Shown here: positions 947 through 50,924 of the stretch, one piece after another
Position numbering within the stretch: the stretch's first letter is position 1
Layout: each line of letters starts with the position of its first letter
DNA from: Loigolactobacillus coryniformis subsp. coryniformis KCTC 3167 = DSM 20001
Lineage (GTDB): Bacteria; Bacillota; Bacilli; Lactobacillales; Lactobacillaceae
Length of the DNA stretch: 64,000 nucleotides
Direction: 5' to 3'
NCBI RefSeq assembly: GCF_002706425.1
Contig: NZ_CP017713.1
Span: 186,001 to 250,000 of the forward strand
Program-made: the position numbers and the translations under genes
The notes under the pieces: model-generated
What the model was told of the DNA's origin: nothing
The model's database searches: none
What the model saw: the letters and a program-made list of their open reading frames with translations, nothing else

Positions 947-1435
947 ATGTTTAACTTTTTAAAAAAGAAAAGTAGTCCAAAAGATGAATTACACGCGTTA
1001 GCAACTGGTAAACTGATACCGTTAGAACAAGTAGCTGACGATGTTTTCTCACAAAAAATGATGGGCGATGGTTTTGCAGTTCAGCCAGATACTGGTGAAA
1101 TCGTTGCACCAATAACCGGTAAAATTGAAAGTATTTTTCCAACTAAACATGCGCTAACGATCAGTACATCTACTGGTCTAGAATTAATGTTGCATTTGGG
1201 ATTGGACACAGTTGAATTAAATGGCGCACCATTCTCATTAAATGTTAGTGAGGGTCAAATGGTTACGGCAGGTGAACCACTTGTAAAAATGGATCTAGCA
1301 GCAGTGACAGCTGCTGGTAAAGAAACAACCGTTATTGTGGTCATCACGAATATGGATGTGGTAGCTGAATTAACCACAGTTGAAACACGATCAGTTACCG
1401 CTGGCGAAGTTGTTCAAGAAATTAGTCTTAAATAA
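947..1435 (+). CDS. PTS EIIA(Glc)-type phosphocarrier domain, stand-alone
   Basis: This 162-residue protein is a single EIIA glucose-family domain. His68 (FPTKHA) and His83 (MLHLGLDTVEL) match the two active-site histidines of the Crr fold, one of which is phosphorylated by HPr. The start at 947 follows a GGAGG at 936-940; a longer TTG reading from 926 would overlap that site. No EIIB or EIIC domain is attached, so the protein must donate phosphate to a permease encoded elsewhere. It lies 13 bases after the RpiR gene and is probably cotranscribed with it. Confidence 0.88.
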   Translation: MFNFLKKKSSPKDELHALATGKLIPLEQVADDVFSQKMMGDGFAVQPDTGEIVAPITGKIESIFPTKHALTISTSTGLELMLHLGLDTVELNGAPFSLNVSEGQMVTAGEPLVKMDLAAVTAAGKETTVIVVITNMDVVAELTTVETRSVTAGEVVQEISLK

Positions 1436-1454
1436 GTATGTACCACTAAAAAAA

Positions 1455-1478
1455 CACGCTCACTGAGCGTGCTTTTTT
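1455..1478. terminator. Bidirectional rho-independent terminator
   Basis: The stem CACGCTC/GAGCGTG has a 3-base loop, is flanked by an A-run on the left and a T-run on the right, and separates two convergent genes. Confidence 0.9.
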
Positions 1479-1484
1479 GTTTGA

Positions 1485-2516
1485 CTAAGCTGGTTTTTCC
1501 CCGGCCAAGATACGTTTGGCTGCCGCTTTACTTAAGTCATAGTGATAGTACTTTTCGTAAAATTGTTGCGTTTTTTGGATCATGTTTAATTGTTTGAATT
1601 GAGCGGGATGTAATTTTTTCGCCGCCCATAAGACTTGTAAGGCCTCTTCAGCACTATAGCGATCCCAGGCAAAGGTACCTTGCGGGTTACCATACACCCG
1701 GCCAGCTTTGACAGCTTTTAAATTTGCAAAACGAGAATCCGCCCGTAATGTTTTTAGCGCCGCTTTGCTAGTGGTGCTGCCAACGATGATCACATCGGGA
1801 TTAGCCGCAATGATCTGCTCGGCAGTCACTGCTTTCATATTACCTTTGATCGTTAGCGCATTTTGACCGCCACTTAATTTGATCCATTCATCGACGATCG
1901 TATCGCGCCCGTCAACTTTCAGTAGATCTTGGGCGTTGACGATGTGCAAGACCTTAGGCTTTTGCGTGCCTTTTTTAAGATGTTTCGCCACGTAATTAAT
2001 ATTGCCATTCAGTTCCTTAGTGTACGTTTGGGCGATGGTCGGCGCGTTACCGCCTAATACTTGCGCGGTTACTTTGACCGATTTTTTTAAGCCGGCAAAA
2101 TCTTGGTACATCAGGTTAACAGCGGGAATACCGGCTTTTTTGGCTTGTTCCGCTTGGCTGGCATCTGCAGTCAGCACTACATCTGGTTTTTGTTTCAGTA
2201 ATTCTTCTGTTTGGAGATCACTGCCGCTTAGCGGTGCAGTCACATTTTTGATCCCCGGGTACACCGTGGTGAACCAAGGCATCTGCTTGATCGTATCCGT
2301 GGTAGCAACTAATTTTTTCTGGCCATTTAACAATAAAACAACCTGATTATTGGCGTGCCAGAGGTCGGCAACACGGGTCACTTTTTGTGGCAAAGTGACT
2401 TTGGTGCCGGTTAGATCAGTTACCGTACGCGCACTGGCAGTTTGGCTAGGTGTTGCCATGATCGTAGTCGCTACCAGTAAACCAGCAACTAGAGCACATT
2501 TTTTCCAAAGTTTCAC
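1485..2516 (-). CDS. ABC importer substrate-binding protein (BtuF/FepB/MolA superfamily)
   Basis: This 343-residue exported protein starts at a GTG (2516) placed 6 bases after AAGGAGGA. A signal peptide (KLWKK then a hydrophobic core) ends at about SQTASA/R. There is no lipobox cysteine, so cell attachment is unclear. The body is a PF01497-type two-lobed binding fold (PDVVLTAD, NPDVIIVGS). The C-terminal FAWDRYSAEEALQVLWAAKKLHP stretch is typical of the branch holding metal, siderophore and molybdate binders. With the next two genes it forms a complete importer. Its place next to moaEDA suggests molybdate or tungstate, but iron chelate or cobalamin cannot be excluded. Confidence 0.8.
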   Translation of the reverse strand: MKLWKKCALVAGLLVATTIMATPSQTASARTVTDLTGTKVTLPQKVTRVADLWHANNQVVLLLNGQKKLVATTDTIKQMPWFTTVYPGIKNVTAPLSGSDLQTEELLKQKPDVVLTADASQAEQAKKAGIPAVNLMYQDFAGLKKSVKVTAQVLGGNAPTIAQTYTKELNGNINYVAKHLKKGTQKPKVLHIVNAQDLLKVDGRDTIVDEWIKLSGGQNALTIKGNMKAVTAEQIIAANPDVIIVGSTTSKAALKTLRADSRFANLKAVKAGRVYGNPQGTFAWDRYSAEEALQVLWAAKKLHPAQFKQLNMIQKTQQFYEKYYHYDLSKAAAKRILAGEKPA

Positions 2517-2530
2517 GAAGAATCCTCCTT

Positions 2531-3328
2531 TTAAATCGTGGTAAAAGTGGTTTGATCGACGATACAAGTTTCTTGGTGGCTGTCCGGTAGTTCCAGAACA
2601 CGCAATGGTAATTGGTAGACTTGGCTTAGGTGGTCACTGGTTAAAAGTTCGGCTGCTGTACCGCTGTGCCACTGGCCATTTTGCGCTAGAGTACTAACTT
2701 GGTCATTAAGTAAAAGCGCTTGGTTAGGGTCGTGAGTGGTCAAAACAATGCCGTAACCAGCGTGAGCAAGTTGGCGAATCAATTTGAGTACGCGCACTTG
2801 ATTGGCGACATCTAAGGCAGAGGTGGGCTCATCAAAAATGATTAATGCCGGTTCCTGCAGCAACGCACGGACAATACTAGCGAGTTGCTGCTGGCCACCG
2901 CTGACCGCCGAATAACTGTTATCAGCGCGCTCGCTTAGGCCAAAACGGTCCAGCAGCTGATCAGCTTTGGCAATGTCTTTTTTGCTGGGAGCAGCGAGCA
3001 AACCGAGATAAGGTGCGCGGCCTAATAAAACATAGTCGCGTAAACTAAATGAGACAGGCGTACGTTCACTACTCATTTGCGGCACGTAGGCGATTTTACG
3101 GGCGCGCTGAGTCGGTGTAAGCGAAGTTAGTGCGTGCTGATCCAACTTGATCTGGCCGTCAGTCGGTTGGTAAGCACCGGCTAAGCAGTTGAGCAATGTG
3201 GACTTGCCGACACCGTTAGGCCCTAGGATACAGTGAATTTGACCACTTTTAAGGTGAAAATTGATCCCGCTAAACAGTGGCGTCGCTTGGTAAGCAAAAC
3301 TGAGATTCTGCGCTGTTAATTCAGTCAT
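2531..3328 (-). CDS. ABC importer ATPase (FecE/BtuD type)
   Basis: This 265-residue ATP-binding subunit has Walker A LGPNGVGKST (about 35-44), signature SGGQQQ (about 143), Walker B LIIFDEPTSALD and the switch histidine in LTTHD. It powers the adjacent FecCD-type permease. The start overlaps the end of the permease gene by 4 bases, which indicates translational coupling. The binding-protein gene follows after 14 bases, so permease, ATPase and binding protein form one minus-strand operon. Confidence 0.92.
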   Translation of the reverse strand: MTELTAQNLSFAYQATPLFSGINFHLKSGQIHCILGPNGVGKSTLLNCLAGAYQPTDGQIKLDQHALTSLTPTQRARKIAYVPQMSSERTPVSFSLRDYVLLGRAPYLGLLAAPSKKDIAKADQLLDRFGLSERADNSYSAVSGGQQQLASIVRALLQEPALIIFDEPTSALDVANQVRVLKLIRQLAHAGYGIVLTTHDPNQALLLNDQVSTLAQNGQWHSGTAAELLTSDHLSQVYQLPLRVLELPDSHQETCIVDQTTFTTI

Positions 3329-4353
3329 GATAAGGTCACTCGTTTCTTTAGCAAAAGCCAGACGAACAGTGGGGTACCGATGAAACCAGTCAGAATACCT
3401 AACGGAATCTCACCGGCGCTGACGGTGCGTGCTAAACTGTCCAACAACAATAGGAAAATAGCGCCGAAAATAGCAGCGAGCGGCAAGGATTTGGCATTGT
3501 TTTGGCCTGATACTAAACGCGCGGCATGGGGAATGACTAAGCCGATCCAGCCGATCGTGCCACTGAGGCAAACTGCACTGGCAGTTAAAATCGTTGCGCA
3601 TAAAATGACGATGCCTTGTTCTAAGCGTAAATTAGCGCCTAAAGTGGTGGCTTCCAGCGGATTCAAGCTGAGTAAATTCAAACGCCAGCGTAACGCATAA
3701 AGCACGATTCCAGCTAAGAGTAAAGTCGGTAAATTAAGTCCAAGATTGGTCAAGGTGACTTTTTCCAGACTGCCTAGTTGCCAATAAGTAATACTCGGTA
3801 GTTGCTGATCAGGATCGGCAACGTATTTTAATAGCCCGATGATTGCTTGCATAAAACCGCTGATGATAATCCCAGCTAGCACTAAGGTCAAACTACCGCG
3901 CGTGTGTAATAAACGCTGGATCGTGATCGCTGCAGTCACTGCCAATAGTCCCCCGATAAAGGCGCTAAACTGAATACCGGCTGTATGTGCGCCTAAAATA
4001 ATCGCCAACGCGGCACCAGCGGCAGCCCCATTGGACACGCCTAGTAAGTCCGGTGAAACTAGTGGATTATGAAAAATAGCTTGAAAGGCGGTCCCAGAAA
4101 TTGCCAACGCCGCACCGATCACTGCTGCGGCAATAATGCGCGGTAATCTTAATTCGAAAATAATTTGTTGGTCAGTGGCACTTAGCGCCGGTGCCAAATG
4201 CAGTGGATGCAATAGAAAACGGGTGATCGTTGTGGCTGACAAGGGGTAGCGGCCAACGCTAAGCGCAACCAGCGCGACTACCAGCAACAATAAACTACTA
4301 CCGCCGATCAATTGCCGATTGCTGAGTTGATGTTTTTTTTGAATGTGAGCCAC
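3325..4353 (-). CDS. FecCD-family ABC importer permease
   Basis: This 342-residue membrane protein has about nine to ten hydrophobic segments. It carries family landmarks LRLPRIIAAAVIGAALAISGTAFQAIFHNPLVSPDLLG near the N-terminus and GTIGWIGLVIPHAARL near the C-terminus. It would form the homodimeric channel of a type II importer. It is the first gene of the minus-strand operon and faces moaE across a 186-base divergent promoter region. That arrangement supports a role in molybdenum supply; the substrate is inferred only from context. Confidence 0.9.
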   Translation of the reverse strand: MAHIQKKHQLSNRQLIGGSSLLLLVVALVALSVGRYPLSATTITRFLLHPLHLAPALSATDQQIIFELRLPRIIAAAVIGAALAISGTAFQAIFHNPLVSPDLLGVSNGAAAGAALAIILGAHTAGIQFSAFIGGLLAVTAAITIQRLLHTRGSLTLVLAGIIISGFMQAIIGLLKYVADPDQQLPSITYWQLGSLEKVTLTNLGLNLPTLLLAGIVLYALRWRLNLLSLNPLEATTLGANLRLEQGIVILCATILTASAVCLSGTIGWIGLVIPHAARLVSGQNNAKSLPLAAIFGAIFLLLLDSLARTVSAGEIPLGILTGFIGTPLFVWLLLKKRVTLS

Positions 4354-4433
4354 CGGCCTTCTATGGTAGAAAAAATTTGCAGAATATCTTTATCTGCTCG
4401 TTTCAATTATAGCATGTGGCGTTTTTCACGCTT

Positions 4434-4442
4434 ATTAGGGAA
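4434..4442 (+). promoter_or_regulatory. ATTAGGGAA motif, candidate regulator site upstream of moaE
   Basis: The same nonamer occurs as an inverted pair upstream of narG (23612-23661). Here it lies in the divergent region between the ABC importer and moaE, about 60 bases upstream of a TAAAAT that could be a -10 box. It is a candidate binding site for a shared regulator such as NreC; the binding protein is inferred. Confidence 0.4.
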
Positions 4443-4539
4443 TTGACTAATTTAAATTCGTGTAAGCGTCTGCCATACTGAAGGCAACAAATGATAAAAT
4501 TCGCACATTCTTTGGAATGGTAGAAGTGAGGGAAACGCC

Positions 4540-4947
4540 GTGCATTATGTTGCCATCGCAGCGCAACCATTAGATGTTCAAGCGCTGTATGAAAAATTAA
4601 AAGCGCCACAATTTGGCGGTATCGTGACCTTTGTGGGTACGGTACGTCAGTGGACCGATGATGTGGAAACGCAGTCGCTTGAATACAGTGCCTATACAGA
4701 AATGGCCATCAAAGAAATGACTAAGTTAGCCGTGGCGATCGAAGCTAAAGGCGCCAACGTGGTGATCGTTCACCGAGTGGGTCATCTAGCGCTAACTGAA
4801 GAAGCTGTTTTTGTTGGTGTGGCAGCAGCCCATCGCGGTGAAGCCTTTAAGTGGTGTGAGTACCTGATCGATACTGTGAAGAAGCAAGTGCCGATTTGGA
4901 AGAAAGAATTTGATACCGACAAAGTGCGCTGGGGAGGTCCGCAATGA
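4540..4947 (+). CDS. moaE: Molybdopterin synthase large subunit MoaE
   Basis: MoaE (135 residues) joins two MoaD subunits to insert the dithiolene sulfurs into cyclic pyranopterin monophosphate. The family landmarks are present: GGIVTFVGTVRQ, HRVGHLAL, and the catalytic lysine stretch KKQVPIWKKE near residues 113-122. Translation begins at GTG after a GAGGG site. It overlaps moaD by 4 bases and opens the moaE-moaD-moaA-narK series. Confidence 0.95.
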   Translation: MHYVAIAAQPLDVQALYEKLKAPQFGGIVTFVGTVRQWTDDVETQSLEYSAYTEMAIKEMTKLAVAIEAKGANVVIVHRVGHLALTEEAVFVGVAAAHRGEAFKWCEYLIDTVKKQVPIWKKEFDTDKVRWGGPQ

Positions 4948-43540: not shown

Positions 43541-45016
43541 GGTTCTATACTTTTTCCTGTTGATAGCTTACTTAACATGGTAATCTATTAGCAGGATTTT
43601 TTAGTGCAAAATAAAAAAGGCCCATAAGCCTCGCACCTAAAAAATCCACCCACTACAGCATCATTTTTAAAGGACGTGAAAACTTATGGACCCTGTAGAT
43701 AATAATATAAAATTTGCGCTCAGTATTAAAGACCCAAATGTAGTTTTTTACAAATATAACTATCAAGTGATTAAAGCTAAGCGCGCAAAAGTATATATAG
43801 CCACGGTTAAGTTCGACCAGAAACATTGCGCTAACTGTGGCTTTTGCGAGCTAAGTCATAATGGACACTACGTATCACGCGTGACCTATCTGGCAGCGAA
43901 TGCGAGTGAACCAGTTTATTTAGAACTCCATAAAGAACGCGTCATTTGTCGTAATTGTAAAGCGTCGTTTATGGCTACTTCTGATGTGGTAGACAAGTAC
44001 TGTTGTATCTCCCGAGCCACGCGTCAGAAAGTGTTTATGAGTCTACAAGACGACCGCACTCAAGCTAGCATTGCGATCGATGCCGGCATATCAGCTAGCA
44101 CTGTCTGTCGTTACTTAGACAACTATGATGACTTATTTCGCAGAAATCTTAACTATCTACCGGTTCATCTCGCCATGGATGAATTTAGAGGAATTGGTGG
44201 TCGGCTCCATTTCATCTGTATTAATGGCGCTGGTGAGCATGAAATTCAACAAATTCTGCCAGACCGATTCAAGCAAAGTATTACTGATTATTTTAAACAA
44301 TTTCCAGCAAGTGTTCGAGCACGTGTCAAAACAGTTACCGTAGATCTAAATAGTTACTATCAAGACATTGCCAAGGCAATGTTTCCGCAGGCAAAAATTG
44401 TGATCGACCGCTTTCACATCGTTGCAATGATGACTCGGGCTTTTAATCAAACTCGGGTGCAAACCATGAAAAAGTACAATAAAAGATCCTATGAATATCG
44501 CACGTTAAAGTTCGCCTGGCGGCTTTATTTGAAGTATGCCGGAAATCTAGATGAGGAACATGTCTTTTATGACCGACACCTGCGAAAACAACTCACACAA
44601 CTAGAACGTGTAGAACAAGGACTGACAATTAACGAAGAACTTAAAGCATCGTACGAGTCGATGCAAAGCATCATGGAAAACCTTAAGAATCAAGACAAAG
44701 ACAAGCTTGTGGAAGATCTATATACAAATCAAAATATAAGTCCCTACATGAAAGCAGTGTTTCAAACGTTCAAAAAGAACTTAGTGGTTGTACTCAACGC
44801 CAGTGAATCGGACTATACGAATGGCCCAGTCGAAGGCATGAATCGAATGATTAAACAAATTCAACGTACAGCATTTGGATTCCGTAATTACCATCATATG
44901 ATTTCACGTATTAAGTTACGGCAAATGAGAACAAAACCAATGAAAAAACAGAGTTGAAAGTCGCATGACTTTCAACTCTGTAAAAGCTATTCATCAACAG
45001 GATTTGACAAAGAGCC
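43541..45016. mobile_element. ISL3-family insertion sequence, 1476 bp, with 8-bp target duplication
   Basis: The left end GGTTCTATACTTTTTCCTG and the right end (read inward GGCTCTTTGTCAAATCCTG) form imperfect inverted repeats extending to TGTTGAT. GATTTTAC is repeated exactly at 43533-43540 and 45017-45024, the 8-bp duplication expected for ISL3. The transposase frame is intact. A strong hairpin (GAGTTGAAAGTC/GACTTTCAACTC, about 44951-44980) follows the transposase gene as a terminator. Confidence 0.93.
43686..44957 (+). CDS. ISL3-family transposase
   Basis: This 423-residue transposase has N-terminal zinc-binding cysteines (CANCGFCELSHNGH and CRNCKASF), an internal helix-turn-helix (ASIAIDAGISASTVCRYLDNY) and the DDE catalytic core. 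Catalytic candidates are Asp in AMDEFRGIG, Asp in TVDLNSYY and Glu in NGPVEGMNRMIKQIQRTAFGFRNY. The length is normal for the family, and no frameshift is seen. Confidence 0.95.
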   Translation: MDPVDNNIKFALSIKDPNVVFYKYNYQVIKAKRAKVYIATVKFDQKHCANCGFCELSHNGHYVSRVTYLAANASEPVYLELHKERVICRNCKASFMATSDVVDKYCCISRATRQKVFMSLQDDRTQASIAIDAGISASTVCRYLDNYDDLFRRNLNYLPVHLAMDEFRGIGGRLHFICINGAGEHEIQQILPDRFKQSITDYFKQFPASVRARVKTVTVDLNSYYQDIAKAMFPQAKIVIDRFHIVAMMTRAFNQTRVQTMKKYNKRSYEYRTLKFAWRLYLKYAGNLDEEHVFYDRHLRKQLTQLERVEQGLTINEELKASYESMQSIMENLKNQDKDKLVEDLYTNQNISPYMKAVFQTFKKNLVVVLNASESDYTNGPVEGMNRMIKQIQRTAFGFRNYHHMISRIKLRQMRTKPMKKQS

Positions 45017-46932: not shown

Positions 46933-48140
46933 CAAGTTAGCCAAATACTTTTAGCTAATTGATAAAATAAAAAACACCCAGACAAATCTCTGTTATCATT
47001 GATGTTCCTACACAAACAATGAAAGAGGTTATTGTCTTGATGCAAGAACAGAATACCACAGTCAGAAAAAAAGGTCAGCACCTAACTTCGTTTGAACGAG
47101 GCAGAATTGCTACGCTGCACAGCCAAGGCTATTCCAATCGTGCAATTGCCAGAGCGCTTAATGTTTGTCATCAAACAATCAATAATGAATTGTGCCGCGG
47201 CGAGATCGACCAAGTAAAAAAAGTGAATAGTCAACGCCAATATTACGCTGTATACTCACCAGAAACAGCACAAGCTAAGTACGAAGCTAATCGAGCCCAC
47301 TGTCATCGACCTTTGAAACTCGTCGGTGTCGCTGATTTTATCGACTATTTTACGACTCATTTGCGTCAAGATGGTTGGTCGCCTGATGCAGCAGTAGGAC
47401 GGGCCAAACTTGAAGGCTTATATCAACCTGAGGAGATGGTCTCGACCAAGACGCTATACCACTATATTGATGCCCAGTTACTTGAAGTCCGTAATCTTGA
47501 TCTACTCGAAAAAACGCGCCACCGTGCTAAACATCATCACTCGATCAAGCACAAGCGTCTGGCCGGACGGAGTATTGATGAACGGCCTAAAAGTATCGAC
47601 CAGCGCCAAGAGTTCGGCCATTTCGAATTGGACACCGTGGTGGGCAAGCGCAACGGTCAAGAGAGTGTGATCTTAACGCTGATCGAGCGTCAATCCCGCT
47701 GCCAAATTCTACGTTTGATCGATGGTCGTGATGCCGATTCAGTCAACTATGAGCTGGCCAAGATCTGTCAAGAATACGGATCAATCATGAAGTCAGTTAC
47801 TGCCGATAATGGCGCTGAGTTCTCGGAAGTTGGCGCTGTACTTACCGGTGTCGCTGACCTTTATTATGCCCATCCATATCGTTCCTCTGAGCGTGGGACT
47901 AACGAAGCGCATAATCGAATGATCCGCCGCGATGTACCCAAGGGTCTATCCATGGATATTTTGGGTCCTCATGATATCCAAGCAGTTGAGTCAAAGCTAA
48001 ACAATTTACCGCGCCGGCAAACTGGCTATCAAACACCCAAAGAGCTTTTCTCCGCTGCTTCCGCCGGTTAAGTTAAGTCCATAAAATATGAATATTAATG
48101 AAAATACTGATTTAATAGGATTTATCGTGTGGCTAATTTG
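46933..48140. mobile_element. IS30-family insertion sequence (ends uncertain)
   Basis: The transposase gene nearly fills the element. The best inverted-repeat candidates are CAAGTTAGCCA (46933-46943) and TGGCTAATTTG (48130-48140), one mismatch when paired. A perfect 14-bp direct repeat AACAAATTTACACC flanks the whole block at 46905-46918 and 48156-48169. Exact ends and target duplication cannot be fixed by eye. Confidence 0.6.
47040..48071 (+). CDS. IS30-family transposase
   Basis: This 343-residue transposase has an N-terminal helix-turn-helix (HLTSFERGRIATLHSQGYSNRAIARALNVCHQTINNELCRG) and the IS30 DDE core: FGHFELDTVVGKRNG, TADNGAEFSEVGA and SSERGTNEAHNRMIRRDVPKG. The ATG at 47040 (or the TTG just before it) follows AAAGAGG. 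The frame is intact. Confidence 0.94.
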   Translation: MQEQNTTVRKKGQHLTSFERGRIATLHSQGYSNRAIARALNVCHQTINNELCRGEIDQVKKVNSQRQYYAVYSPETAQAKYEANRAHCHRPLKLVGVADFIDYFTTHLRQDGWSPDAAVGRAKLEGLYQPEEMVSTKTLYHYIDAQLLEVRNLDLLEKTRHRAKHHHSIKHKRLAGRSIDERPKSIDQRQEFGHFELDTVVGKRNGQESVILTLIERQSRCQILRLIDGRDADSVNYELAKICQEYGSIMKSVTADNGAEFSEVGAVLTGVADLYYAHPYRSSERGTNEAHNRMIRRDVPKGLSMDILGPHDIQAVESKLNNLPRRQTGYQTPKELFSAASAG

Positions 48141-48321: not shown

Positions 48322-49104
48322 CTAATGTACCAGCCGTAATACTCGTAGTAGGCCATTTAGCAATAGGCTAATGATCACAGACATGATCAACCAACTGACG
48401 ATCATTAAGCCAGCATGTTCGATCAGCTTGGCCGCGGTGTCGCTTAAACCTAAAATCGCAATCAAACCACTAATGACCAGTACTAACAGCAGCGTCGTTA
48501 ATACGCCAGTGGCTGAGTTTTTGAAATCGGCTGGGCTTAAATCAAAACCGCCTAAAGTGATATTGGTTATTAACGCTAACCAAATCAGCAGTAAGGGTAA
48601 CGAACTAAGCGAAAAGCTACCTAGTAGCCATTGCAATGCGTCGCCGCTGGGATTAGTGACAAAAGTTTCTAGACGCTGATAAGTCACTGGTAATAACAGG
48701 TAGGTGCTAAGGTACATCGCTGCGGTGCAACCGAAAATAGGCGCGATACCGATAAATAAATTACCCATTGTAGGCCAAAATCTTTTAGTTGCAGCGTGTT
48801 TGACGTAACCAAGCGCTTGCTCGGTCGAATTTGCATTGAGGTGCCAGGGTAGCACTAATAATCTATAATCGATAATTTTATGGTGAAAAAGTAACGCTGT
48901 TAGCAGATGGCTAGTTTCATGCAAAACAATGCCTAGACCGCCTAAATAAACTTGGGCTTGCAGGCCGAATTGATTGACTAACATCTGTTTAGAGTTGCGA
49001 TTGAGGTAAGTAAGCACCAATACGAATAAAAAAGGTAGTAAAAATAGATAGCCGATCAGCGGCAAACAGATAGCTAAAAATGCCGCCATAAACTGTGTGA
49101 GCAT
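48322..49104 (-). CDS. Integral membrane protein with HExxH motif (site-2-protease-like)
   Basis: This 260-residue protein has about six membrane segments. HETSH in GIVLHETSHLLTALLF, followed by LGYVKHAATKR, resembles the zinc site and GYV motif of M50-type or related membrane metalloproteases. The second part is only hydrophobic helices, and no clear NPDG-type third ligand is seen. It may therefore be a divergent protease or an inactive relative. It stands alone. Confidence 0.6.
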   Translation of the reverse strand: MLTQFMAAFLAICLPLIGYLFLLPFLFVLVLTYLNRNSKQMLVNQFGLQAQVYLGGLGIVLHETSHLLTALLFHHKIIDYRLLVLPWHLNANSTEQALGYVKHAATKRFWPTMGNLFIGIAPIFGCTAAMYLSTYLLLPVTYQRLETFVTNPSGDALQWLLGSFSLSSLPLLLIWLALITNITLGGFDLSPADFKNSATGVLTTLLLVLVISGLIAILGLSDTAAKLIEHAGLMIVSWLIMSVIISLLLNGLLRVLRLVH

Positions 49105-49236
49105 TAATTTGATCCCTTCTAAATAGACTTAGTTTAGCAGTTTTAAGTGGTTGGCAAACGTAAATATGTTTTTTATAGTTTATTTTTAAAGTTTTGTTTG
49201 GGGCAACCTGCGCTAGGCAAAGCTACGGCTAACTTG

Positions 49237-49242
49237 TATACT
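49237..49242 (+). promoter_or_regulatory. Candidate -10 box of the nucleoside hydrolase operon
   Basis: TATACT here would give a leader of about 90 bases containing the riboswitch-like pseudoknot. The -35 is weak. Confidence 0.4.
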
Positions 49243-49273: not shown

Positions 49274-49313
49274 TCTGGTCTGGTTCGTGAACTTCCCAGG
49301 ATAAAAAACCAAG
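49274..49313 (+). promoter_or_regulatory. preQ1-I-like riboswitch candidate
   Basis: P1 pairs TCTGG (49274-49278) with CCAGG (49296-49300). The A-rich tail ATAAAAAACCAAG (49301-49313) matches the classic preQ1-I tail ATAAAAAACTAAG at 12 of 13 positions. The loop TGG pairs with the tail CCA, where Bacillus subtilis has UAG with CUA, a compensatory change. The second loop is longer than in type 1 and contains a GTTC/GAAC mini-stem. The downstream genes fit queuosine salvage. Confidence 0.6.
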
Positions 49314-49341
49314 TATCTCAATTGAAGAAAGAGGTTGGAGA

Positions 49342-50328
49342 ATGAATGCGAAAAAAGTTATTATTGACTGTGATCCTGGCATCGATGATAGTTTGGCGCT
49401 GATGTTAGCGTTGGCGTCACCGGAATTCGATGTTATTGGGATCACGATTGTTTGTGGTAATGTGCCCACTGGTCTCGGTGCTGAAAATGCGCTGAAAATC
49501 TTGCAGCGGGCGCAACGTTTGGATATTCCCGTTTACATGGGCGCTACGCAACCACTAAAGCGCGACTATGTTAGCGCGCAAGACACCCATGGTATGGATG
49601 GACTAGGCGAATCGGCGCTAGCCAACGTCACTGAAGTGCGGCCGCACATGGGTGCAGTTAGTTTCCTGAATCACACGTTACAGGCAAATCATGATGTGAC
49701 TGTGATCGCGTTAGGCCCACTGACCAATATTGCGTTGGCGTTGCAGCAGGATCTAACTGCTTGGCAACATGTGGCTGAGTTTGTGTCAATGGGTGGCAGC
49801 TTTCACAGTCCGGGCAATTGTTCACCAGTGGCTGAATATAATTATTGGTGTGACCCGGATGCGGCCCAGCAAGTTTATGCGACCATGCCGGTGCCGATCA
49901 AAATGATCGGTTTAGACGTAACGCGTAAAATAGTGCTCACACCTAGTTTGTTGGCCTATGCGCAGCGGGTAGATCCAAAAGTCGGCGGTTTTATCGCCCA
50001 GATCACCCAATTTTATTTTGATTTTCATTGGCAGCAAGAAAAAGTCATCGGTTGCGTGATCAATGATCCATTGGCCGTAGCCTATGCGATCAATCCTAGT
50101 TTGTGTTGCGGTTTTAGCAGTTACACCACTGTAGTCACGGACGGCATTGCGCTGGGGCAAACTATCAGTGACACCGCTAATTTTTGGCAGCGACCGACCA
50201 ACAGTTTAGTATTAACTGAAGTCGCAGCTTTTCGTTTTTGGCAATTGTTCTTGAATCGGGTTATAAGTGCACAGGAACCTGAATTAAGTGTTATTTTACG
50301 ACAATTACATTATACGGAGGCTGAATGA
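49342..50328 (+). CDS. IUNH-family nucleoside hydrolase, candidate queuosine hydrolase
   Basis: This 328-residue enzyme has the calcium-binding N-terminus IIDCDPGIDDSLALMLAL, VIALGPLTNIALAL and WCDPDAAQQV. The usual catalytic His-Asp-Pro near the C-terminus reads INDPLAVAYAI, with Asn for His, pointing to an unusual substrate. A QueK enzyme of this family releases queuine from queuosine in Clostridioides difficile. The preQ1-like leader and the ECF component downstream fit that role. The ATG follows GAGGTTGGAG, and the stop overlaps the next start. Confidence 0.82.
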   Translation: MNAKKVIIDCDPGIDDSLALMLALASPEFDVIGITIVCGNVPTGLGAENALKILQRAQRLDIPVYMGATQPLKRDYVSAQDTHGMDGLGESALANVTEVRPHMGAVSFLNHTLQANHDVTVIALGPLTNIALALQQDLTAWQHVAEFVSMGGSFHSPGNCSPVAEYNYWCDPDAAQQVYATMPVPIKMIGLDVTRKIVLTPSLLAYAQRVDPKVGGFIAQITQFYFDFHWQQEKVIGCVINDPLAVAYAINPSLCCGFSSYTTVVTDGIALGQTISDTANFWQRPTNSLVLTEVAAFRFWQLFLNRVISAQEPELSVILRQLHYTEAE

Positions 50329-50882
50329 TGGCACGAAAAATGAAACCACGGGTGCTAGTTTTCTTGGCATTGTGTGTGGCTTTGAATCTAGTTGGCGGCA
50401 ACTTGGCGTTGTTGCTGCGGTTACCAGTATATTTAGATACGTTGGGTACGATTTTAGCGGCCGCATGTCTAGGACCGTGGGCTGGGATGTTGGTCGGCTT
50501 AACGGGTAGCTTAGTTACTGGTTTGACCACCGATCTATTCTCGCTATATTACTTACCGGTGCAACTGATCGTCGGCTTGACCGCTGGGTTGGTTTATCGT
50601 TATCGGCCACAAGCACAAGCCAAAAATGTTTGGTGGCGCGCACTGGCGATTTCATTACCTGGCACCTTGATCAGCACACTGATCACCGTGTTACTTTTTA
50701 ACGGTATCACTTCATCGGGCTCCAGCTTACTGGTTCAACTTTTAGCTGGTTTAGGCCTGGGCAAAACGGCCGCCGTCTTCATCGTTCAAGTTGGTACGGA
50801 TTACTTGGACCGTGTGATCGGTGTTGCTTTTGTTGCCGCCGTTTACCGCGTGGTAACGACACGACTAGCAGTGCATCACTAA
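50325..50882 (+). CDS. ECF transporter substrate-binding (S) component
   Basis: This 185-residue membrane protein has about six helices and S-component features (LALCVALNLVGGNLALLLRLPVYLDTLGTILAA, GPWAGMLVGLTGSL). It would pair with a shared EcfAAT energizing module encoded elsewhere. It overlaps the nucleoside hydrolase gene by 4 bases. Together with the riboswitch-like leader, this suggests uptake of a queuosine-type base or nucleoside; it is not the classic QueT family by sequence. Confidence 0.8.
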   Translation: MMARKMKPRVLVFLALCVALNLVGGNLALLLRLPVYLDTLGTILAAACLGPWAGMLVGLTGSLVTGLTTDLFSLYYLPVQLIVGLTAGLVYRYRPQAQAKNVWWRALAISLPGTLISTLITVLLFNGITSSGSSLLVQLLAGLGLGKTAAVFIVQVGTDYLDRVIGVAFVAAVYRVVTTRLAVHH

Positions 50883-50885
50883 AAT

Positions 50886-50924
50886 AAAAGTCGACTAAGC
50901 ATTAAATCGCTTAGCCGGCTTTTT
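50886..50924. terminator. Bidirectional terminator
   Basis: AAAAGTCGACTAAGC pairs imperfectly with GCTTAGCCGGCTTTTT between convergent genes. Confidence 0.8.

Follow-up and report, generated by a model that had tools for sequence, protein, structure and literature searches.

A probable two-gene queuosine salvage operon, queK-qrtT, under a preQ1-I riboswitch in a lactobacillal genome

A stretch of 64,000 nucleotides from a genome of the family Lactobacillaceae (2.95 Mb, one contig), hereafter termed the window, very probably carries a two-gene salvage operon, queK-qrtT, for queuosine (Q), a building block of tRNA, under the control of a preQ1 riboswitch. In the proposed pathway, the S component and a shared ECF module would import a queuosine-type 7-deazaguanine compound, perhaps a nucleoside, since a nucleoside hydrolase almost always accompanies the S component; this hydrolase would split Q into ribose and queuine, and the base would then be converted to preQ1 or taken by TGT, ending in tRNA. 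The leader, predicted to bind preQ1 from its conserved contact bases, would reduce expression when preQ1 is plentiful. The kind of system is already known; here, the enzyme for the released base was not found. QueK-type salvage had been proposed for this locus in an earlier note, and the proposal holds up on three grounds, namely a switch scoring above the cut-off, a hydrolase falling in the clade of QueL-linked hydrolases, and an S component belonging to the cluster of S proteins from QueL operons. What the earlier note had observed stood as regards the aptamer, its A-rich tail, the hydrolase gene and the ECF S gene, but not as regards a longer loop and a compensatory P2 pair. The features are collected in Table 1.

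Table 1. Features of the operon and of the candidate dehydrogenase locus (window positions, except for the last row).
Feature	Position	Strand	Basis or remark
Sigma-70-like promoter, TAGGCA-17-TATACT, ~30 bases 5' of aptamer	49214-49242	+	Consensus scan, weak
PreQ1-I (type I) riboswitch aptamer	49274-49318	+	RF00522; contact bases kept in 39 switches
Aptamer P1	49280-49283 with 49296-49299	+	
Aptamer bases: specificity C; tail C; unusual C	49295; 49309; 49310	+	
Shine-Dalgarno hairpin, likely expression platform	49316-49334	+	Covariation of arm pairs
QueK-like nucleoside hydrolase P0001, 328 aa	49342-50328	+	PF01156, tree clade, Asn241
QrtT-like ECF S component P0002, 185 aa	50325-50882	+	PF12822, cluster shared with S proteins of hydrolase loci
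Terminator-like hairpin at operon end	50892-50917	both	Pattern scan, weak
Short-chain dehydrogenase, 253 residues, 3' of QueT, same strand	L032:3888-4649 = C1:1330890-1331648	-	

The preQ1-I-like element claimed in the earlier note was recovered at exactly its place when the whole 64 kb was searched against 4227 Rfam families, where RF00522 scored 43.4 bits (gathering score 39; E 1.7e-5) and was aligned without a gap over model positions 1-45 of 45. RF00522 was the sole family at E<=1 between positions 49100 and 49400, and neither preQ1-II nor preQ1-III gave an Rfam match there. According to the accessible part of PMC8752633, which describes a Carnobacterium type I structure with two bound preQ1 molecules, the ligand is contacted by G5, U6, U7, U16, C17, A30 and C31; all of these bases are present in the window aptamer, and they are conserved across 39 aligned switches (12 QueK-type and 27 QueT-type, out of 64 inspected) except for U16 in four. 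The A-rich tail, correctly noticed before, is nearly invariant in the same 39 switches. The marks by which type I is defined in the available text of PMC11625349, a UC before the 3' strand of P1, a UU after its 5' strand and a tail C, are likewise found in the window. The CUA of the type I 3' tail is absent from the window switch, which has CCA, as do 10 of the 12 aligned QueK-type switches; CUA is stated in the accessible part of PMC8752633 as a preference and no absolute rule.

The deviating base is tail position 32, which is C in 10 of 12 QueK-type and in none of 27 QueT-type aligned switches, and which is located, in the portion of PMC8752633 available, in the ceiling of the pocket above the beta ligand. 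This difference speaks for a variant switch, whose leader would sense queuine or Q, or would turn expression on; the retention in the window of all alpha and beta contact bases, as given in that portion, speaks against it. The suggestion of a variant class put forward in the earlier note is unsupported, because the match is gapless, the ligand contacts are kept, and the compensatory P2 pair is missing: the loop, said to be longer than in type 1, matches the Rfam consensus without insertion, and the unusual C32 faces an unchanged A12 (numbering from the same part of PMC8752633), so that it stands uncompensated inside P2.

The on-direction of such a variant was weighed on the leader beyond the aptamer. 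In the window, the Shine-Dalgarno GAGG (49331-49334) pairs with UCUC (49316-49319), and the inner four pairs of this hairpin were paired in 66 of 68 cells, with 17 distinct arm pairs, two-sided changes and a permutation p of 0.005 that ignores kinship. The sample consists of 33 leaders sharing an arm motif that was defined after inspection of the leaders, eight further short leaders without the motif being left out. The outer four pairs, which share the aptamer tail, were held in 61 of 68 cells, no better than permuted (p 0.24). The tail strand could pair with bases beside the Shine-Dalgarno, as an on-switch would require, but when the tail was blocked in folding calculations the mean exposure of the Shine-Dalgarno stayed at 0.16 versus 0.16 over the 33 leaders, rising in six and falling in seven. 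An on-switch working through competition between tail and Shine-Dalgarno hairpin was therefore rejected, given the outer stem without covariation support and a Shine-Dalgarno that, on average, remains closed. Among 35 long leaders, 13, mostly clostridial, have a tail with a perfect downstream complement of at least six bases, in several cases directly preceding a T run, and the other 22 have none; the mean complement over the 35 is 4.8 bases versus 3.3 in single-base shuffles. These complements resemble the antiterminators of preQ1-off switches, and preQ1-off is taken as the default direction. With these points considered, a leader that senses another ligand or acts in the opposite sense is regarded as very unlikely. 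In the preferred reading, preQ1 would lower expression of the operon, a direction suggested by the known class and the antiterminator-type relatives and not by the short-leader subtype itself. The short QueK leaders place the Shine-Dalgarno within a separate downstream hairpin, and in the QueT leaders inspected it lies inside or adjoins the tail.

As a separate observation made by eye, the aptamer loop of five leaders (L163, L164, L168, L178 and L180; four Peptostreptococcaceae and one relative), which reads GAGAACC or GAGAACU, matches a downstream GGUUCUCC or AGUUCUCC, an element also complementary to the Shine-Dalgarno region. A second, translational layer of control in those five leaders is possible.

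The hydrolase gene starts 23 bases 3' of the aptamer, and its end shares four bases with the start of the S component gene. The promoter-like site of Table 1 has 9 of 12 consensus matches in a consensus scan, and a second one, at 49151-49179, has 10 of 12; seven such sites occur in the scanned stretch versus 3.4 expected, so that the promoter support is weak, as is that of the terminator-like hairpin (three versus 2.3 expected). Upstream of the operon, open reading frames at 43686-44957 and 47019-48071 resemble, by eye, ISL3-type and IS30-type transposases.

An IUNH-family hydrolase followed by an ECF component, as the earlier note had named the two genes, was confirmed by Pfam matches to IU_nuc_hydro (PF01156, E 5.6e-89) and ECF_trnsprt (PF12822, E 4.1e-12). 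A maximum-likelihood tree of 122 rows unites it, with support 98/99, in one clade with every one of the 31 hydrolases that are linked to QueL in the named loci, and to these it is 50-60% identical; other IUNH genes from these same genomes branch elsewhere. The link to the QueK of C. difficile was drawn from gene content in Peptostreptococcaceae, the comparison being made by relatives with the same gene set; because loci of the clade carry the C. difficile gene set queK-qrtT-queL, the window locus is read as a queK-qrtT operon, and its membership in the clade of QueK suggests that the hydrolase would cleave Q to ribose and queuine. The NCBIfam models for RihA, RihB, RihC and UriH scored 189-206 bits against cut-offs of 382-459, none of which was reached (RihC 206 against 382, UriH 190 against 450). 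These scores count for little, because a hydrolase from a non-queuosine locus (L119) also falls below all of these cut-offs.

Residue 241 of the window hydrolase is Asn, where the five solved IUNH sequences compared (YeiK three times and two plant enzymes) have His, which we take to be the catalytic residue (H239 in YeiK, H241 in the Crithidia enzyme). All 80 clade members from the named loci (the best 80 of 574 relatives) have Asn241; a second gene of the cluster in L198, outside the clade, carries His, and in eight genomes of the family Asn was found in 8 QueK-type genes and His in 13 other IUNH matches, five more being unscored. Asn241 was considered as a 7-deazaguanine signature, as there is no N7 to protonate, and was rejected: two hydrolases of the sister group (L119 and L120) also have Asn, so that the residue does not mark queuosine alone. 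As judged from the sequences compared, Asn241 is a feature common to the wider group and no proof of a queuosine substrate. The neighbours of the sister-group genes are uridine phosphorylase and EcfT/EcfA-like genes, plus a ribokinase-like open reading frame in L119, and because of them the wider family seems to serve ordinary nucleosides too.

The Pfam matches of the S component are PF12822, PF07694 and, below the cut-off, PF07155 only; the QueT family PF06177 gave no match in this protein. NF045596 is the best model for it (94.7 bits, below the cut-off of 180) and for five S proteins from such loci, all of them sub-cut-off. The window protein matches all 30 QueL-linked S proteins of its cluster, with 41-54% identity to the 11 best-scoring. 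More distant S relatives adjoin EcfT/EcfA-like genes in some loci, L119 and L120 among them, of which some add a nucleoside hydrolase, a ribokinase-like gene and a uridine phosphorylase; these relatives are probably dedicated nucleoside importers.

The spread of the arrangement was followed in 80 named hydrolase loci, the best 80 of 574 relatives, which come from Lactobacillaceae, Enterococcus, Streptococcus, Lachnospiraceae, Clostridiaceae, Peptostreptococcaceae, Erysipelotrichaceae and others and which include near-copies such as five Streptococcus cristatus strains. A model was trained on 39 switches, 12 QueK-type and 27 QueT-type, with L161 in the training set; run on these loci, it found a preQ1-I switch upstream of the hydrolase in 68 of the 80 at E 4e-6 or better. 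No full switch was found by this model in the other 12 of the best 80, among which 11 have none, including L188 with a chance-level partial match and L143, L157 and L194 with little upstream DNA in the locus, and one (L206) is broken. Rfam, run on 13 of the 80, was above its cut-off in 10 and found none in three, which are also without a full switch in the 39-switch model. An S component of one cluster is present in 75 of the best 80 loci; 31 of the 80 encode a radical SAM protein that is homologous to QueL and likewise belongs to a single cluster. Since the L138 member of that cluster matches the solved structure 6p78 'Queuine lyase' (E 4.4e-79), the 31 loci are read as queK-qrtT-queL operons. 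A radical SAM protein close to the relative in L116 was rejected as QueL, as it matches TIGR04100 and no solved structure at E<=0.01.

These counts bear on a further rival explanation, namely that an ordinary hydrolase and transporter for nucleosides lie behind an incidental aptamer. The Pfam name, inosine-uridine hydrolase, and the occurrence of S-component relatives with uridine phosphorylase would suit it, but a switch upstream in 68 and a following QueL in 31 of the best 80 of 574 loci, the former across several Bacillota families, make it extremely improbable.

Among 121 genomes of the family, RF00522 was found at 70 places in 55 genomes at E<=0.001, and above its cut-off in 35 of those 55. 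Of the 64 places inspected, 13 precede a hydrolase and S pair, 50 precede QueT and one (L066) precedes neither; a switch in G093, inspected additionally, precedes a hydrolase and S pair, and five places (G039, G041, G046, G072 and G073) were left out of the survey. In Leuconostoc gelidum (L206/L264, G016:C28), the queK leader is without the 5' part of the aptamer, and L066, about 43 kb off on the same G016 contig, has a stretch like the promoter and the larger part of an aptamer, and no queK follows; the switch seems to have been split by a rearrangement.

The window genome is very likely that of a queuosine user, because its QueA and TGT genes are neighbours, QueG is present, and a second preQ1 switch, at C1:1332446-1332490 (-), precedes its QueT (PF06177). 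QueH was not found in this genome, and the sole match to QueC covers model positions 2-64 of 210 (20.5 bits, or 26 when neighbours are included, against a cut-off of 22) and probably represents another ATP-binding enzyme. Of 14 QueK-bearing genomes checked, seven (G099, G071, G038, G085, G007, G054 and G016) have QueA and TGT but gave no match to QueG or QueH at the thresholds applied. No match to QueL was obtained in the window genome, and the 121 family genomes gave a single weak one with three stops. A nearby queL is also missing from 49 of the 80 clade loci (best 80 of 574), and queL is no strict criterion for QueK.

The TGT of all 20 genomes checked carries the motif GGLSVG, which is of the preQ1 type, and queuine may therefore be unusable by this enzyme. 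In the accessible part of PMC11570991, queuine-using TGTs are given the motif GG[LS][AS]G, and a Bartonella TGT with GGLAVG takes queuine at high concentration, so that the motif does not settle queuine use. With QueL not found and TGT of the preQ1 type, queuine released by QueK would be hard to use via the known enzymes and may be a dead end unless something turns it into preQ1.

One way out of this difficulty would be a different substrate. If the hydrolase took a different 7-deazaguanine nucleoside (preQ1 riboside or epoxyqueuosine, for example), preQ1 or a close base would be yielded and QueL would be unneeded; this would accord with an adjacent QueL in none of the 24 named Lactobacillales loci of the tree (from the best 80 of 574) and with the retention of the operon under a preQ1 switch in a family whose 121 genomes gave no sound QueL. 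However, we know of no source of free preQ1 riboside, and the lactobacillal hydrolases keep the conserved residues of the clade, so this alternative to a queuosine substrate is considered distinctly unlikely.

Another way out would be a different enzyme. In bacteria with QueK and without QueL, a short-chain dehydrogenase might stand in for QueL by oxidising a hydroxyl of the cyclopentene-diol of queuine, which would free the amine as preQ1; we offer this as a tentative idea that is, on balance, unlikely. Its lactobacillal candidate forms a family with 52-64% identity, versus at most 38% for the next paralogue, in 20 genomes searched, and is present at E<=1e-60 (at least 48% identity) in 44 of the 121 genomes. 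It occurs in 15 of 15 QueK-bearing family genomes identified (13 from the survey plus G016 and G093) and in 22 of the 40 further genomes that have a preQ1 switch; with the 13 QueK genomes, Fisher p is 0.002, kinship being ignored, QueK presence being scored via the switch survey and the five uninspected places being counted as QueK-less. The dehydrogenase lies 3' of QueT in 21 of 50 QueT loci, some with only 1.5 kb downstream. In 8 of the 15 QueK genomes (G000, G007, G016, G022, G054, G081, G085 and G108) it adjoins the QueT switch, and in the other seven it lies elsewhere in the genome, away from QueT, which lowers the odds of this reading.

A shorter clostridial dehydrogenase stands beside queK-qrtT, at the place expected for queL, in 8 of the best 80 of 574 loci (L147, L151, L155, L187, L189, L196, L199 and L202) and never, at the level of these loci, in one with QueL (chance 0.016; the loci are few and partly related). 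It is about 26% identical to the lactobacillal one. NF005118 is the best NCBIfam model for the three dehydrogenases scanned, with 336 bits for the lactobacillal one, above the cut-off of 270, and 86 and 94, below it, for two clostridial ones; its name, 3-oxoacyl-ACP reductase, counts against a stand-in for QueL. In Leuconostoc fallax (L039, G007, 1140-4639, reverse strand), the hydrolase gene adjoins the QueT-dehydrogenase pair, each neighbour being under its own preQ1 switch and the switches lying about 2.2 kb apart; the S frame there has only 117 codons and may be broken.

By these results, queK-qrtT with its preQ1 switch is found not just in clostridia but also in lactobacilli, enterococci and streptococci, in genes whose general annotation would probably read only 'nucleoside hydrolase' and 'ECF component'. 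These lactobacilli, with a TGT of the preQ1 type and no queuine lyase found, should release queuine, which leaves three possibilities: that TGT accepts it, that the substrate is a different one, or that preQ1 is made by some other enzyme. The literature searched (main texts, few subscription papers) yielded no account of this operon from lactobacilli, nor any of a link to the dehydrogenase.

Compared with known systems, the hydrolase shares the Pfam family and, by alignment, the conserved Asp motif with RihA/B/C, YeiK and the plant enzymes, and differs from the solved ones (YeiK, plant) in Asn241 at the place of the His that is H239 of YeiK. In the accessible part of PMC8752633, the Carnobacterium type I switch is alike in P1, UU, UC, A-rich tail, tail C and contacts, whereas the window has CCA instead of CUA and keeps its Shine-Dalgarno in its own downstream hairpin and not in the tail. 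QueT (PF06177) under a preQ1-I switch, the usual arrangement in Lactobacillaceae (50 of 64 switches inspected), is alike in switch family and in having an ECF S component; in contrast, the window S component belongs to a different family, the QueT examples have the Shine-Dalgarno in or next to the tail, and QueT in the window genome is a separate locus, followed by the dehydrogenase. The preQ1-I/queK-qrtT-queL operon of C. difficile was reportedly described by Yuan et al. in PNAS in 2019. As far as the available part of PMC11477304 goes, a preQ1-I switch precedes queK, qrtT and queL in that organism. Unlike it, the window operon and genome are without queL, none that is sound being found in 121 family genomes, and the window has a short leader with a Shine-Dalgarno hairpin; the two operons, as described in that part, are alike in the preQ1-I switch, the IUNH-family hydrolase and the ECF S component.
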